Shown piece by piece: positions 21,713 through 28,522 of a stretch of DNA of 49,258 nucleotides. Location: positions 1 through 49,258 of the forward strand of contig CADEDG010000007.1 of NCBI GenBank assembly GCA_902826035.1, written 5' to 3'. The notes beneath the pieces are model-generated. The model did no database searches, was not told the DNA's origin, and saw only the letters and a program-made list of their open reading frames with translations. The number at the start of each line of letters is the position of its first letter. Position 1 is the stretch's first letter. The translations under genes were made by a program, and so were the position numbers. The stretch comes from an uncultured Alphaproteobacteria bacterium (GTDB taxonomy: Bacteria > Pseudomonadota > Alphaproteobacteria > Caulobacterales > Aquidulcibacteraceae).

Positions 21713-22738
21713 ATGGCTCAGGTGGTGATCGTCCATGCTTTGGAGGACACCCTGCCGGCTCGGGCGCTGGCCGAAAAGCTCCGTCGCGTCGAACTCGAGG
21801 TGACGCTGGAGCAGCCGGCCGGCGAAGAAACCCGCCGAGCCCTCGAAACCGCCGCGCTTGCAATCGCGCTTTGGTCGCCCAAATCGGTCGGCCAAGCCGG
21901 CCACATTGAGGATGTGACCTACGCGCGGGAAAGGGGCCCGGTCCTACACGCGGTCATGCAGAACGCTGCAGCGCCATCCCAGTTTCATCAGGATCGGGGA
22001 GTCAATCTCACTGGTTGGCGCGGTGAGGAGGACTTCCCCGCTTGGCGCCAACTGGCAAAGTTCGTTGCCGAAGCCGCTGGCGTCACGCCGCCTCCCCCTC
22101 CGACGCCGCAGCCAGACTCAGGCTTCTTCTCGCCGGGACGGGCCGCCGCCGCCGCAGGCGCTCCAAACCCGGTGCGGGAGCGTGAAATTGCGCCGCTCAA
22201 GCCGGGACCAGAGGCGGCTGCGCCTGAACGAGCCAAGGTCCCAAAGCGAAGCTCAGGATTGATCCTGGCAACCCTTGCGGTTGCCGCGCTCGGCGGCGCC
22301 GGGGGGGGATTTTATTTCTGGAACCAATCACGCGCTCCTGCAGAAGCCCGCTCAGTGCTTGACCAACTCGACCCTAACGATGCGGAATCGCTGCGCGCCC
22401 TCATCAATGGAGATTCTGGCGAATTATCCGAGCGGGCGCAGCGGGCTTTGAGCGATCTGGAGGAGCGCAGCTTCGAAGCCGCCAGCGACGCCGACATCGC
22501 CGAACTCGAAGCATTCCTGAGCGAATTTCCACAAAGCCAACACGCCGCAGCCGCGCGGCTGCGGCTTGCCGAGTTGCAGCGCACAGCAACGGTGGAACCG
22601 CAACCCGAACCGCCGAGCGAACCAGTCCGCGCCGATCCAGAGAGCCCCGCGCAGGAGAGCGAGCCGGTGCTTGGCGAGCCGCCCTCGCTGGACGAGACAC
22701 AACAACCATCAGACCCGGCCGCGGCGCCGCCGAGTTAA
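21713..22738 (+). CDS. Membrane-anchored TIR-like protein
   Basis: 341 residues. Residues 1-123 resemble the TIR_2 fold: VVIVHALEDTLPARALAEKL, a central AALAIALWSPKSV and an acidic helix HIEDVTYARE. Glu66 is placed where the NADase Glu of active TIR domains stands, then GVNLTGW and a Trp-rich end. A Pro-rich linker leads to one membrane helix (182-203) and a periplasmic tail with short helical repeats (EAFLSEFPQSQHAAAARLRLAEL), as in YbgF-type TPRs, ending Pro/Glu-rich. The ATG at 21713 follows GGGGAA. GNAT starts two bases after the stop. A defence, stress or envelope role is possible; not established. Confidence 0.65.
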   Translation: MAQVVIVHALEDTLPARALAEKLRRVELEVTLEQPAGEETRRALETAALAIALWSPKSVGQAGHIEDVTYARERGPVLHAVMQNAAAPSQFHQDRGVNLTGWRGEEDFPAWRQLAKFVAEAAGVTPPPPPTPQPDSGFFSPGRAAAAAGAPNPVREREIAPLKPGPEAAAPERAKVPKRSSGLILATLAVAALGGAGGGFYFWNQSRAPAEARSVLDQLDPNDAESLRALINGDSGELSERAQRALSDLEERSFEAASDADIAELEAFLSEFPQSQHAAAARLRLAELQRTATVEPQPEPPSEPVRADPESPAQESEPVLGEPPSLDETQQPSDPAAAPPS

Positions 22739-22740
22739 TT

Positions 22741-23283
22741 GTGCTCAATTTCCGCACAGCCGCCCCCTCCGACATCGCCGCAGTACTGGCGCTGGTCGAA
22801 AAGGCGTTTCGCGGTGAAACTGCGACCCGTGGCTGGACCCACGAGGCCCACCTCCTCGGCGGTCAGCGAACGGATGCACAGGCGTTGCGCGACATCATCG
22901 CGAGACCAACCGATTCCCTGATCTTGGCCGAACGAGGCGCCGCCTTGATTGGTTGCGTCATGCTCGCCGACAGGGGCGTGTTCGAAGGGCGCCGGATCGG
23001 TTATCTTGGGCTTCTGGCCGTGGATCCTGACCTACAAGCCGGCGGCATTGGCGGCGCCCTCGTTAACGAAGCCGAGCGGCGGGCGCGTGAACTTGGCGCC
23101 GAAAGCATGGAAATGACGGTGATCAAACGCCGGACCGAGTTGATCGAATGGTATCTGCGCCGCGGTTACGGTCTCACCGGTCGCGAAGAGCCATTCCCGC
23201 TAGACGATCCGCGTTTTGGGCTCCCGAAAACGCGCGATCTTTCATTTGTTGTGTTAGCCAAACCGCTCACGCCAGCGCGTTAA
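22741..23283 (+). CDS. GNAT-family N-acetyltransferase
   Basis: 180 residues, one GNAT domain. IGYLGLLAVDPDLQAGGIGGAL contains the acetyl-CoA pyrophosphate loop (usually QxxGxG/A; here QAGGIG). The late strand-helix EMTVIKRRTELIEWYLRRGY is also typical. The substrate is unknown. It starts with a GTG two bases after the TIR-like gene and is thus probably in the same transcript. The following gene has its own sigma-54 promoter in the 123-bp gap. Confidence 0.87.
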   Translation: MLNFRTAAPSDIAAVLALVEKAFRGETATRGWTHEAHLLGGQRTDAQALRDIIARPTDSLILAERGAALIGCVMLADRGVFEGRRIGYLGLLAVDPDLQAGGIGGALVNEAERRARELGAESMEMTVIKRRTELIEWYLRRGYGLTGREEPFPLDDPRFGLPKTRDLSFVVLAKPLTPAR

Positions 23284-23332
23284 CCGCGCAATTGCCGCCT
23301 TTCGGCGAACCGAAATAGGACTTTTCCCCATT

Positions 23333-23349
23333 CTGGCACGAGCGTTGCA
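23333..23349 (+). promoter_or_regulatory. Sigma-54 (RpoN) promoter
   Basis: CTGGCACGAGCGTTGCA matches the consensus YTGGCACGrNNNTTGCW at every constrained base. The -24 GG (23335-23336) and -12 GC (23347-23348) are separated by exactly ten bases. Transcription would start near 23360, about 47 bases before the ATG of the TipN-like gene. RpoN promoters need an AAA+ activator bound upstream; no activator site is identified by eye. Confidence 0.85.
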
Positions 23350-23406
23350 GCCGCCCCCCGTTAACGCCGCCCAACCAAGGTCCCGCGGCGACGGGAGTTC
23401 TGCGCA

Positions 23407-25206
23407 ATGTATTATCAATTGGATGAAGAAGAGCCTGACACGCGCAGTTCATTCGAGATGTTCGGCGAGTTGGAAACTCAGGCAGCGAACGATGCCCAAG
23501 AATCCGAACAGGAAGCGAGGCCACGCGCTATCGCACCGGCGCAGGCGCCGTTAAAGAACGGCTTCTCTTGGGCGGCCTTCGCTGGGGGGCTGGCGGCGTT
23601 CACATGGATTGGCGCAGCCATCGGCGTGCCCTTGTCCTATTTCGGCATCGATGCCGTCCTCTCCATGGATCCGGCCATGCAAGCGGGACTGGTTGCGCTC
23701 GCCTGCGGGCCCGCCCTGCTGTTTTGGGTATCGGCCTCTGCGGCCGGCGAAGCGTTGAAAGCGCGCCGGCTCGCCGCAGAGCTCACGCGAATTGCGCGGA
23801 CGCCAACATTGGCGACCGAAGCCGGGGAGGTTGGCGCACGCCGGCTCTCCGAAACAGTTAAGTCAGAAATTGAATCCCTGAATGACGCGGTGGCCACTGC
23901 ACTCACGAGGTTAGCTGAGCTCGAGCGCAGCGCGCAGCGCAATGCCGCTCTGTTCAACGAAGCCGTGACCGCCTCGCGTGAAGGGGGCGAAGAACTCACC
24001 CAGACGCTCCAACGCGAACGCGATTCCATGCGCGAACTCAATGGCGAATTGCGCAACGAAACCGAAGTAATCGCACACTCGGTGGGGCGCCAGGTTCGGT
24101 TGATGCGCGAAGCGTCGAAGCTGGTAAGCACGGAGATGGGCGCTGCAGAAAACGCGCTGGAACGCCACTTGACCGCATTCGCCGCATCGGCGACCACGCT
24201 AAGCACCCACACCAGCGCCTTCAGGCACGCCGCTGGCGACGCCAATGCGGCCGCCACGGCGCTTAACGGCAAGGTCGCGGGGATGCTCGACGGTCTTAGC
24301 GAAGCCACGCGCCTAACGGACGCGGCGCGCCAATCAGCCGAGCACGCTGTGGCCGCCGCCTCCGAGACCGCCCATGCCGTCCGCGAATCCACGCGTACTG
24401 CTGTCATAGAAGCCAAACGCGCCGCGCAATTGGTGCGCGAAGAGACCATCGCGCTCCAGGATGCCGCCGGTGAAACCCTGTCCAAGCTGTCGGCCGCCGC
24501 GAACGCTGCGCGCGACGCGTCGGAACAAAGCCAAGCCGCCGCCGACCGCCACGCCTCCTCGATCGAAAAGCGCTTGTCGGCGCTGGCCGCAACCGCCTCG
24601 GCGAAGAAAGCCGCCCTGCCCCAACGCTCTGAGCGACCCGCTGAGCCGATCGTCGTGGCGAATGAATCGACGCTTGAGAGCGTTGGGAATCTGCAAGCGG
24701 CCGCAAACGCCGCCGCATCACGCTGGTCGCAACCGCGCGCCAGCCAAGCCCGCGAGACCGAGTCCAGTGGCATCTTCAAAGGCTTCACGGGTTGGAACAA
24801 CTTCCTGCCGCTGGCGCCCACGCGCGGCGCGCCGAAACCCGCCAACGAGAGCGAAGCGTTCAACCTTGTCGAGTTCGCATCGGTCGACCACGACACAATA
24901 TTGAAGAATGACGCCATCGACCTTGTTGCCGATGCTGGTGTCGATCTGGACGCCGTGCTCGCCGCCCGCGATCTTGAGCGCATCGCGCAAAGCTCACGCC
25001 ATGGCGCCGCCGCCCGCCGCCGCGCTGTCGTGGACGCTGCGCCCGGCGCGGTCAACCGCGTCGCACGCCACGTCAAACGCAATGGCGACGCTCAGCGTCT
25101 GGCGACGCAATTCCGCGCCCGCCCCGACCTCGCTAAAAGCGAGCGCAAAGGCGAAAGCTCGGAACTGGTGCGCGCCTATCTGTTGATCGACGCCGCATTG
25201 TCCTGA
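23407..25206 (+). CDS. TipN-like polar coiled-coil membrane protein
   Basis: 599 residues. An acidic cytoplasmic N-terminus (1-45) precedes two membrane helices (about 52-75 and 90-113). A very long Ala/Glu/Arg-rich coiled coil follows (about 115-400), then a linker and a compact C-terminal domain from about 485 (FNLVEFASVDHDTILKNDAI, ending RAYLLIDAALS). This layout matches Caulobacter TipN, the new-pole marker that places the flagellum and chromosome segregation machinery, although that protein is longer. My identification rests on architecture and on memory of the C-terminal pattern. It starts at the ATG after GGGAG. Expression from an RpoN promoter fits a flagellar or polar programme. The 3' end overlaps the convergent pqiC-like gene by 31 bases. 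Confidence 0.5.
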   Translation: MYYQLDEEEPDTRSSFEMFGELETQAANDAQESEQEARPRAIAPAQAPLKNGFSWAAFAGGLAAFTWIGAAIGVPLSYFGIDAVLSMDPAMQAGLVALACGPALLFWVSASAAGEALKARRLAAELTRIARTPTLATEAGEVGARRLSETVKSEIESLNDAVATALTRLAELERSAQRNAALFNEAVTASREGGEELTQTLQRERDSMRELNGELRNETEVIAHSVGRQVRLMREASKLVSTEMGAAENALERHLTAFAASATTLSTHTSAFRHAAGDANAAATALNGKVAGMLDGLSEATRLTDAARQSAEHAVAAASETAHAVRESTRTAVIEAKRAAQLVREETIALQDAAGETLSKLSAAANAARDASEQSQAAADRHASSIEKRLSALAATASAKKAALPQRSERPAEPIVVANESTLESVGNLQAAANAAASRWSQPRASQARETESSGIFKGFTGWNNFLPLAPTRGAPKPANESEAFNLVEFASVDHDTILKNDAIDLVADAGVDLDAVLAARDLERIAQSSRHGAAARRRAVVDAAPGAVNRVARHVKRNGDAQRLATQFRARPDLAKSERKGESSELVRAYLLIDAALS

Positions 25207-25787
25207 GCGGCGCCGCGGGCTGCAAATTCGCCAATGCGCGCGCTGCCTTCACGGGCGGCGCGCGCAAGCGCTTGGGCCGCTGCGCTCGCGGTGCGCGCGC
25301 CTACCGGTTCATCGCCGTTGATGATTTCCTGCGCCACGACCGTACGGTTTGGCAGCGCAACGAGCATGACATCAGCGCGGAAGAGCGCTGTCATGCTCTC
25401 GTCGTGCACCTCGAAATCGAGCACCTCCCAGCGCAATTCATAATCGCCGTGTGCTTCGCCTGAACGCACGACGGCGTGGAACCGATCCTGTCCCGTCATC
25501 GTTTCGATCAGCATGGATTGCAGAGAAGCATCGGCGCGGCTTGACCATTGCGACTGGCCGAGGAACGAGAGACGGTCGCCGTTGCGCCAAATCAGGTCCG
25601 AGCCAAGCAAAGTGCGCTCGCCTGAGGGCTGGGCGACGCCAATTACCGCATTCACCGTCGCGCCCGGTTGCGATGGCGCGTTGTCGGCTTCCAACACGTA
25701 GATCGCGGGCGGAGGCGGAGGCGGAGGCAGCAACGATATGCATCCCCCGAGCAGCAGCAGCGGAGCGAAGGCGGCGGAGGGCTTCAT
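25176..25787 (-). CDS. ABC-transport auxiliary lipoprotein (PqiC/YmbA-like)
   Basis: 203 residues. A signal peptide with lipobox Cys16 (LLLLGGC), a run of eight consecutive prolines (residues 21-28), then a periplasmic domain with ATPLQS-like LQSMLIETMTGQDRF and YELRWEVLDFEV. This pattern is that of the DUF330/PqiC group, which accompanies MlaD-type permeases and connects them to the outer membrane. It is the last gene of the operon; its ATG overlaps the mlaD stop by four bases. Its final 31 bases overlap the convergent TipN-like gene. Confidence 0.8.
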   Translation of the reverse strand: MKPSAAFAPLLLLGGCISLLPPPPPPPAIYVLEADNAPSQPGATVNAVIGVAQPSGERTLLGSDLIWRNGDRLSFLGQSQWSSRADASLQSMLIETMTGQDRFHAVVRSGEAHGDYELRWEVLDFEVHDESMTALFRADVMLVALPNRTVVAQEIINGDEPVGARTASAAAQALARAAREGSARIGEFAARGAAQDNAASINR

Positions 25788-26653
25788 TGCGGCAACTCCA
25801 AAGTAGGCCGCGGCGAGCGCGGTGTGAGCACGGAGGGATTTTCTTCAAGATTATTGGCCACACGACCAATCGCAAGCGCGGCCTGGCGGATTTCTTCCGC
25901 CGCAGCGCCGATATCGGGCAGCGTTTCGCTGTTGGCGGTGGCCGCCGCGGAGCGCATGTCGCGCATGATCTGGTCGAGATCGGCTAGGTCTGCCTGGGTC
26001 TGACGCGCCAGCGTGCTTACGTCGGCGGCTGCGGCGCCCAGCGCTGTGGCGGTTTCCGCGGAACGGGAAATCACGGAATTCCTGTCCGCCAGGCGAGCGC
26101 TGATAGTCTCGAGATTGTCGAGAATGCCGCTGACGCGGGTTACGTTCTCCTCGGTGAGCAAACGCTGCACGGCGGCAAGCGCCCGACTTGCCTCCATGAC
26201 GATGTCCTCGCTTTGGTCGAACAGAATGTCGATCTGGCTGCCGTGGCCAGCGATACGCGGCGGCTGACCGAATATTTCCGAGCGCGCCGCGGACGCGCCC
26301 TCAGAACCAGGCGTAAGCTGGATCAGCGATACCCCTGTCAGGCCCACCGGCTCCAAGCGCGCCTCGCTGTCTTGCTTTACCGGCACCACCGATGAAACGC
26401 GGATGCGGGCGATGACGCGCCGCGTATTATCCGCATCGATCCGCAGCGCCCGCACTTCGCCGACCTTGATGCCGTTAAAGCGCACTTCGCCGCCGTCGGT
26501 CAGCCCGCGCACCGGATCGTCGAACACCACTTCGTATTCGTTGAAACCGCCGCGATAATCGGAATTGGCGAGCCACATCGCAAACAGCATAAACGCCGCC
26601 GCACCGACCAGGGTCGCGACACCGATGAGAACGTAATTGGCTTTAGTTTCCAT
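25784..26653 (-). CDS. mlaD: MlaD-family MCE-domain protein
   Basis: 289 residues. One N-terminal membrane helix (7-28) is followed by the MCE domain (about 38-115: YEVVFDDPVRGLTDGGEVRFNGIKVGEV and VGLTGVSLIQLTPG), the phospholipid-binding ring. A helical C-terminal part of about 150 residues (ILDNLETISARLADRN and DLDQIMRDMRSAAATANSETL) would form the tube seen in longer MCE proteins. It works with the permease and ATPase encoded just upstream and the lipoprotein downstream. The start overlaps the end of mlaF by 11 bases. Confidence 0.92.
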   Translation of the reverse strand: METKANYVLIGVATLVGAAAFMLFAMWLANSDYRGGFNEYEVVFDDPVRGLTDGGEVRFNGIKVGEVRALRIDADNTRRVIARIRVSSVVPVKQDSEARLEPVGLTGVSLIQLTPGSEGASAARSEIFGQPPRIAGHGSQIDILFDQSEDIVMEASRALAAVQRLLTEENVTRVSGILDNLETISARLADRNSVISRSAETATALGAAAADVSTLARQTQADLADLDQIMRDMRSAAATANSETLPDIGAAAEEIRQAALAIGRVANNLEENPSVLTPRSPRPTLELPQ

Positions 26654-27404
26654 GACCCATCCCCGGAGCGGAGTTCATTTGCACGGCCCGCCCACGGGGC
26701 CCGCAGAAATATTCCTTGACCCAACCGCTGGCGTTGGCGGCCACATCTTCCACGGCGCCAAGTGCGGCCACTTCGCGACCGTACAGAACCGCCACCCGGT
26801 CACAGACCGCATACAAGGTGTCGAGGTCGTGCGTGACCAGGAACACCGTCAGGCCCAACGCCTTCGCCAGTTCGCGCACCATGCGATCAAATTGCTCGGC
26901 GGCGATCGGATCGAGGCCAGCGGTCGGTTCGTCCAAAAACAGCAATTCGGGGTCGAGCGCGATCGCCCGCGCGACGGCCGCGCGCTTGCGCATGCCGCCG
27001 GAAATTTGCGCCGGCTTCTTGTGGTGCGCTTCAGGCCCGAGGCCGGCCATCGACAATTTCAGCGCGGCGATCTCAGCGCGCAGCGCCGGGGTCAAATGCA
27101 CGTGCTCCCGCAGCGGCGCTTCAACGTTCTCAAGCACCGTCAGGTTGGAAAACAGCGCCCCGTCTTGGAACATCACACCCATGCGCGGCGCTCGCCCGCT
27201 GAACGCGGGAAAATCAATTTCGCCCGCGGTCGCGCGGTCCAGGCCGACGATCTCGCGCAGCAACACCGATTTGCCGCTCCCGGAGGGGCCGACAACGCCC
27301 AGAACCTCGCCACGCAACACGTCCAGGTCGAGACCCTCGTGCACGACCTGCGCGCCAAAGCGCGTGGTGAGCCCACGAACGCGGATGGCGATCTCGGCGC
27401 TCAC
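26643..27404 (-). CDS. mlaF: Lipid ABC transporter ATP-binding protein, MlaF-like
   Basis: 253 residues. All ABC motifs are in order: GPSGSGKS (Walker A), GVMFQDGALF (Q-loop), QISGGMRKRAAVARAIA (signature), LLFLDEPTAGLDP (Walker B) and VTHDLDT (switch His). The pattern ISGGMRKR is typical of Mla/Ttg2A ATPases. The GTG at 27404 gives a GTGA overlap with mlaE; a TTG one codon upstream is the alternative. Energises phospholipid movement through MlaE, in the inner membrane. Confidence 0.94.
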   Translation of the reverse strand: MSAEIAIRVRGLTTRFGAQVVHEGLDLDVLRGEVLGVVGPSGSGKSVLLREIVGLDRATAGEIDFPAFSGRAPRMGVMFQDGALFSNLTVLENVEAPLREHVHLTPALRAEIAALKLSMAGLGPEAHHKKPAQISGGMRKRAAVARAIALDPELLFLDEPTAGLDPIAAEQFDRMVRELAKALGLTVFLVTHDLDTLYAVCDRVAVLYGREVAALGAVEDVAANASGWVKEYFCGPRGRAVQMNSAPGMGHGN

Positions 27405-28522
27405 CAATCCATCTCCAGGAACCAGAGCGCGAACAACGCGTCGAGCAGGATCACCATGAAGATCGACTGCACCACCGAAGCGGTGACGCGTCGCCCAAGC
27501 GAACCCACATCACCGCCGACCGACAATCCTTGCTTGCAACCGATGATCGCGAGCGTCAGCGCGAACACCGGCGCCTTCACCATGCCTACCCAGAAATGCT
27601 GCTCGGGAACGGCGTCGGAAATGCGGGTGAAAAACATGGTTGGGCTGACGCCAAGATTGGCCCACGTCACCAGAAGCCCCCCAGCGAGACCCGCAAGCAT
27701 CGCCGCGAGCGTCAGCAGCGGCGTCATCACGAGCATGGCGAGCACGCGCGGAGCCACGAGCGCCTCCATCGGAGCGATGCCCATGACGCGCATCGCGTCA
27801 ACTTCCTGGCGCATTTTCATGGCGCCAATCTCGGCAGTGAACGCGCTGTTGGTGCGACCCGCCAGCAGAACTGCGGTAATCACCACCGCAAATTCCCGCA
27901 GCATCGAAAACGCCACCAATTCGACGGTGAAAACCGAAGCACCGAAATCGCCCAGAACACGTGCACCGAGGTATGCAACAACAAGCCCGATAAAGAATGA
28001 CAAGAGCGTCACGATAGGCAGTGCGTTGAGGCCCGCCTGTTCCATGACATGGACGATGGACACCCAACGCAGCCGCCGTGGCCGCACCAGAAGTCTAGCC
28101 AATGTCGTCAGCGTTTCACCCAAGAACGAAACGGTCTCGAGCGCCTCTTGGCTAATTTCGGCGACAGCGCGGCCGGTCTGCTGCAAAATCCCGCTTAGAC
28201 CCCGTGGGCGCTCGGGCGCCGGCTCTGGCGCAGTAATGGCGCTAACAACCACTTGCAGCAGGCGCGCTGCATTGGCGTGTTCGCCGCGCACTCCAATCGG
28301 CGACGCCCCACGAGACTCCCCGAGCGTTCGTACAACTAGGTAAGCGCCGGCAACGTCGAAGCGGCCAAGTCCGCTGACTTCTACCTCCGTGCCCACAGCC
28401 GGTGAAAGCGAACGCAGCGCGGGCTCCAGGTCGGCTATAGTGTCGATGGTCCAATCGCCGGCTAACGCCAGCACCGGGGTGCGACCGTCTTGGGTCAGAT
28501 CGAAGGCCGTCGCACGGGCCAT
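27401..28522 (-). CDS. mlaE: MlaE-family permease with fused N-terminal STAS domain
   Basis: 373 residues. The first 95 or so form a STAS-like domain (TPVLALAGDWTIDTIADLEPAL, then GRFDVAGAYLVVRTLG), which in E. coli is a separate protein, MlaB. The permease follows, with about five membrane helices and the family motifs FAVVITAVLLAGRTNSAFTAEIGAMK and LTLAIIGCKQGL. It is the first gene of the operon mlaE-mlaF-mlaD-pqiC; GGAG lies nine bases before the ATG. Fusion of STAS and permease makes MlaB unnecessary. This form is known in alphaproteobacteria. Confidence 0.92.
   Translation of the reverse strand: MARATAFDLTQDGRTPVLALAGDWTIDTIADLEPALRSLSPAVGTEVEVSGLGRFDVAGAYLVVRTLGESRGASPIGVRGEHANAARLLQVVVSAITAPEPAPERPRGLSGILQQTGRAVAEISQEALETVSFLGETLTTLARLLVRPRRLRWVSIVHVMEQAGLNALPIVTLLSFFIGLVVAYLGARVLGDFGASVFTVELVAFSMLREFAVVITAVLLAGRTNSAFTAEIGAMKMRQEVDAMRVMGIAPMEALVAPRVLAMLVMTPLLTLAAMLAGLAGGLLVTWANLGVSPTMFFTRISDAVPEQHFWVGMVKAPVFALTLAIIGCKQGLSVGGDVGSLGRRVTASVVQSIFMVILLDALFALWFLEMDW

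Follow-up and report, generated by a model that had tools for sequence, protein, structure and literature searches.

Does the element at 23334-23349 place a TipN-type polarity gene under sigma-54 (RpoN) control, and in which programme would that gene then be expressed? TipN, a protein of about 890 aa in Caulobacter, is a new-pole landmark that determines the site of the next new pole. The initial annotation had read a near-perfect RpoN promoter about 58 bases ahead of a TipN-like gene and had suggested that this would place pole marking under the flagellar or cell-cycle programme. We searched the literature and found no paper linking tipN to sigma-54 or TacA. We followed up this reading in the window (the whole 49,258-nt stretch of DNA analysed), in its 3.14-Mb assembly and in related genomes. 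The gene downstream of the element is called P1 here, and the second family member P2.

The -24/-12 element upstream of P1

Direct reading of 23333-23349 gave C-TGGCACG-AGCG-TTGCA, in which the GG (23335-23336) and the GC (23347-23348) are separated by 10 bp, the fixed sigma-54 spacing, and which agrees with the TGGCAC/TTGCW consensus. The end of the element lies 57 nt from the ATG at 23407. Consensus, spacing and distance were thus confirmed as annotated, and the start position predicted for sigma-54 coincides with the one near 23360 that had been proposed for 5'-end mapping (Table 1). The block around this predicted start, GTTAACGCC, is also common at the same distance in relatives, with GTTAACG seen in most, and relatives carry a similar GGGAGTTT-N2-5-ATG. 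A scan of 23150-23450 revealed no sigma-70-like promoters and no terminators.

The exact pattern TGGCAC-N5-TTGCA occurred once in the whole window and once in the assembly, at this site, and TGGCAYRN4TTGCW matched twice in the window's own genome, before P1 and before hfaA. Loose matches were not commoner in the window than expected (116 observed, 153 in shuffles), so the weight rests on the exact match and its conservation.

Table 1. Positions of the features at the P1 locus, in window coordinates
Feature	Position	Strand	Basis or remark
GNAT acetyltransferase, upstream neighbour	22741..23283	+	Pfam PF00583
GCCTTTCGGCGA, candidate activator site (weak)	23297..23308	+	Common to the window and its sister genome (L020) in a 60-nt alignment upstream of the motif
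-24/-12 promoter element TGGCACG-N4-TTGCA, sigma-54 type (TGGCACGAGCGTTGCA)	23334..23349	+	Exact match unique in the genome; conserved
Predicted transcription start 23360, within block GTTAACGCC	23360..23368	+	Placed 12 nt past the C of TTGC
Likely ribosome-binding site GGGAG, ahead of ATG 23407	23393..23397	+	Read from sequence
TipN-family paralogue P1, 599 aa	23407..25206	+	Translation, hydropathy, tree, AlphaFold2 model
Mla-type cluster, convergent (lipoprotein, MlaD-like, putative MlaF-like, putative MlaE-like)	25176..28522	-	Last two named from sequence and gene order

For the 599-aa gene, orthologues were taken from the genus and near relatives. TGGCAY-N5-TTGCW was present upstream in 29/29 orthologous loci, with TTGCA as the -12 box except for TTGCT in one, and usually 38-57 nt from the likely start codon; the encoded proteins were 43-84% identical to the window protein. 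Across 27 non-duplicate rows, TGGCA and TTGC were 100% invariant, and mean information fell from 2.0 bits per consensus position to 0.8 within the spacer and 0.35 over the -90..-45 flank. Five genus genomes contained one to four matches each to TGGCAYN5TTGCW, the P1 site always among them. Aligned among relatives, as the initial annotation had suggested, the region therefore keeps its motif in every locus while the flanks drift. On this evidence the element at 23334-23349 is very probably a sigma-54 promoter, and RpoN presumably transcribes P1.

Two TipN-type paralogues

The P1 protein matched no Pfam or NCBIfam family. Hydropathy peaks near residues 56-76 and 90-114 marked two N-terminal transmembrane segments. 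The AlphaFold2 model (mean pLDDT 64 overall) comprised a disordered N-terminus, a helical hairpin with membrane helices at about 55-79 and 89-115, and long helices at 140-255 and 265-396 of moderate confidence, which form a predicted coil region. A small helical domain at the C-terminus (residues 495-598; window 24890-25203, +) was confidently modelled, and its conservation extends to P2 and to many homologues. The PDB sequence search with P1 returned no matches, and structure comparison with the PDB gave no meaningful match for P1, in which coils dominate, or for the 495-598 domain.

TipN has been outlined as two N-terminal membrane domains followed by a large coiled-coil part (PMC9178275). 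As modelled, P1 resembles Caulobacter crescentus TipN in this topology, with two N-terminal membrane helices and a long helical C-terminal part, but it is shorter (599 aa) and one of two paralogues. Homologues in other families of the order were 600-1030 aa long and usually present once per genome. The TipN-like gene of the initial annotation was thus upheld as regards the topology encoded downstream of the motif, but not as the sole TipN gene, since it has a sister paralogue. P1 would presumably mark a pole.

P2 was found at C9:1753-3450 (-) in the window's own genome, and in many relatives the two genes adjoin in the order P2 then P1. In the tree, P1 and P2 each formed one clade (100/99); the two clades were mutual sisters (96/91) and the single-copy homologues fell outside them, indicating one duplication inside the family. 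We then compared the upstream regions. Every P1, including those of genera g8, g22, g23 and g24, scored 13.4-14.9 of 14.9 (p ≤ 0.005 vs shuffles), and the element was also present at a cut-off P1 candidate at the end of a stretch in g21. No comparable sigma-54 element was detected upstream of P2 (best 12.2, p 0.07) or of homologues present as single copies in other families (best 12.7; among 31 scanned, p 0.015). A different conserved block, CCCTTGAA...CGTT, precedes P2, and full CtrA sites (TTAA-N7-TTAA) formed no consistent pattern before P2 and the single copies. With the element at every P1 and at no P2, sigma-54 control belongs to one duplicated copy. The view that tipN is under RpoN as in all relatives is ruled out, the motif being missing from the single-copy homologues of other families.

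As to the gene neighbourhood, the stop codon of the GNAT acetyltransferase lies 50 nt ahead of the promoter, and the Mla-type cluster is a conserved downstream neighbour of P1. In the window and its sister genome, P1 no longer stands beside P2, and the old upstream neighbour has been lost; the P2 half and the P1/Mla half lie on separate contigs in the window's genome. Next to P2 lies a DivK-like response regulator with a single domain, joined in most genomes by a hybrid histidine kinase (L058, L060, L061, L063, L068). Window positions 21713-22738 (+) encode a protein that combines a membrane segment with a TIR-like N-terminus, weak and under the Pfam cut-off, and a tail faintly resembling YbgF/BamD.

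Candidate activators and the programme of P1

RpoN is encoded in 60/61 genomes, including the window's own (C31), which also encodes four regulators whose sigma-54-activator-type domain is complete. FlbD, in a fliF-fliG-fliH neighbourhood, carries GAFTGA and scored 775 bits with the NCBIfam FlbD model (cut-off 750); the C58 regulator has the domain order receiver-AAA-HTH_8 and carries GSFTGA; NtrC and NtrX (L080 8029-9216 and 4355-5869) are without the GAFTGA loop. Caulobacter has the same four, NtrC, NtrX, FlbD and TacA, and the same two are without the loop (PMC10274813). By elimination and by domain order, compared with this described Caulobacter set, the C58 protein appears to be TacA-like. 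NtrC and NtrX are ruled out as direct activators because the GAFTGA loop is missing.

Two further gene groups share the promoter type. In the window's own genome, the other strict sigma-54 promoter stands before hfaA, which is followed by hfaB (L081 2235-2250, contig C19), and this site was kept in 12/12 genus loci examined, with the -12 box variant TTGCT. The hfaABD holdfast-anchor operon therefore has the same strict -24/-12 promoter in the genus as P1, but it encodes outer-membrane anchor proteins, and the palindrome found upstream of P1 in most genus members (see below) is missing at hfaA. In nearly all genus members (L244-L252, L254), SpmX-like genes were preceded by TGGCGC-N5-TTGCC, 66-77 nt before the ATG; these sites were individually weak (p 0.015-0.07) yet conserved. 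The SpmX-like gene encodes a lysozyme domain and resembles spmX. In Caulobacter, TacA activates spmX. The TGGCGC-N5-TTGCC element is close to the Caulobacter RpoN motif GGCNC-N4-CTTGC, which is located at -26 of spmX (PMC4287350). By analogy, P1 would be like Caulobacter spmX in being the gene of a membrane-linked polar-type protein with a sigma-54 promoter, whereas SpmX is a stalked-pole muramidase-like protein and, unlike P1, no TipN-type scaffold.

If FlbD drove P1, the gene would belong to the late flagellar programme, and the pole marker would be made only after basal body assembly. The GAFTGA-bearing FlbD beside fliF-fliG-fliH speaks for this possibility, as do the sigma-54 flagellar genes that FlbD drives in Caulobacter (PMC3930126), whose promoter class is that of P1, and the distance of 30-40 kb that separates the P1/P2 locus from flagellin in several relatives. 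However, the two flagellar genes covered, flagellin and flgE (L185-L205, L232-L241), had no sigma-54 motif directly upstream in this genus, though FlbD is encoded, in contrast to the late flagellar genes of Caulobacter and to hfaA and the SpmX-like genes here; flagellin and flgE may use promoters further upstream. We regard control by FlbD as rather unlikely. The motif at hfaA and the SpmX-like genes and its absence at flagellin and flgE favour a polar/holdfast programme over a late flagellar one, and the former, with a TacA-like activator, is the likelier of the two on these sequence comparisons. The flagellar part of the original proposal was thereby weakened, while the sigma-54 promoter itself held. 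That the TacA-like protein activates P1 has, in our estimate, an even chance of being correct.

The conserved block could instead be kept for another DNA-binding protein and be no RpoN promoter at all. Conservation alone is no proof of sigma-54, and GTTAACGCC and the upstream palindrome are conserved too. However, the invariant letters are exactly those that sigma-54 needs, the spacer is freer, and hfaA, too, is preceded by this element, with the -12 box as TTGCT. We judge this reading very improbable.

We also considered nitrogen control through NtrC, in which the palindrome would make P1 nitrogen-responsive. NtrC sites have a 6-5-6 form, and so does the palindrome, TGCNCC-N5-GGNGCA, which was located exactly -47 from the element in most genus members (L021-L042 and others). 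It is nearly unique in each genome, turning up at only a few places of which P1 is the constant one, unlike a global NtrC site, and it is missing before P1 in the window and its sister genome; moreover, NtrC and NtrX are without the GAFTGA loop, as in Caulobacter (PMC10274813). Nitrogen control is accordingly judged very unlikely. With regard to the FlbD/NtrC-type upstream sites that the initial annotation had suggested searching for, the NtrC-like palindrome is a candidate in most relatives, but not in the window's lineage. A dyad search upstream of the window element was not significant (p=0.12). Besides the weak candidate activator site in Table 1, ACTTTTCCCC (23320-23329) is likewise common to the window and its sister genome. 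The palindrome was ruled out as a general regulon marker, being almost confined to P1 and missing at hfaA.

Chance agreement with a short consensus, for which the abundance of loose two-mismatch matches in the genome might speak (669, vs 543 with the reversed pattern), is ruled out by a site that is exact, unique, at the right distance and kept in every orthologue over large divergence.

A proposed sigma-54 switch on one TipN copy

Taken together, we propose, with a probability of about 0.8, that a sigma-54 -24/-12 core drives the single gene P1, one of two TipN copies, in a developmental programme. One duplication, in a group of uncultured bacteria related to the stalked ones, gave rise to two TipN copies. 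The region upstream of P2 is different and not of the sigma-54 type, and P1 would have come under sigma-54 control and then stayed there. The RpoN holoenzyme would wait as a closed complex on 23334-23349 until triggered by an AAA+ activator like FlbD or TacA, leading to transcription from about 23360. The second TipN copy would then be made in a pulse, in a programme common to hfaA and the SpmX-like gene. The claim of the initial annotation is to be narrowed accordingly, to one of two TipN-type paralogues under RpoN, probably along with holdfast-anchor and SpmX-like genes.

Whether P1 was captured by a sigma-54 switch common to the holdfast-anchor and SpmX-like genes, so as to provide a second, timed pole mark while P2 kept a different, presumably older promoter, is a question on which the odds appear balanced. 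If true, polarity and adhesion would be coupled through one sigma factor, and P1, hfaA and the SpmX-like gene would probably form a co-regulated set. A lineage in which one TipN copy is always under sigma-54 and the other never would offer a natural experiment on standing versus timed pole marking.
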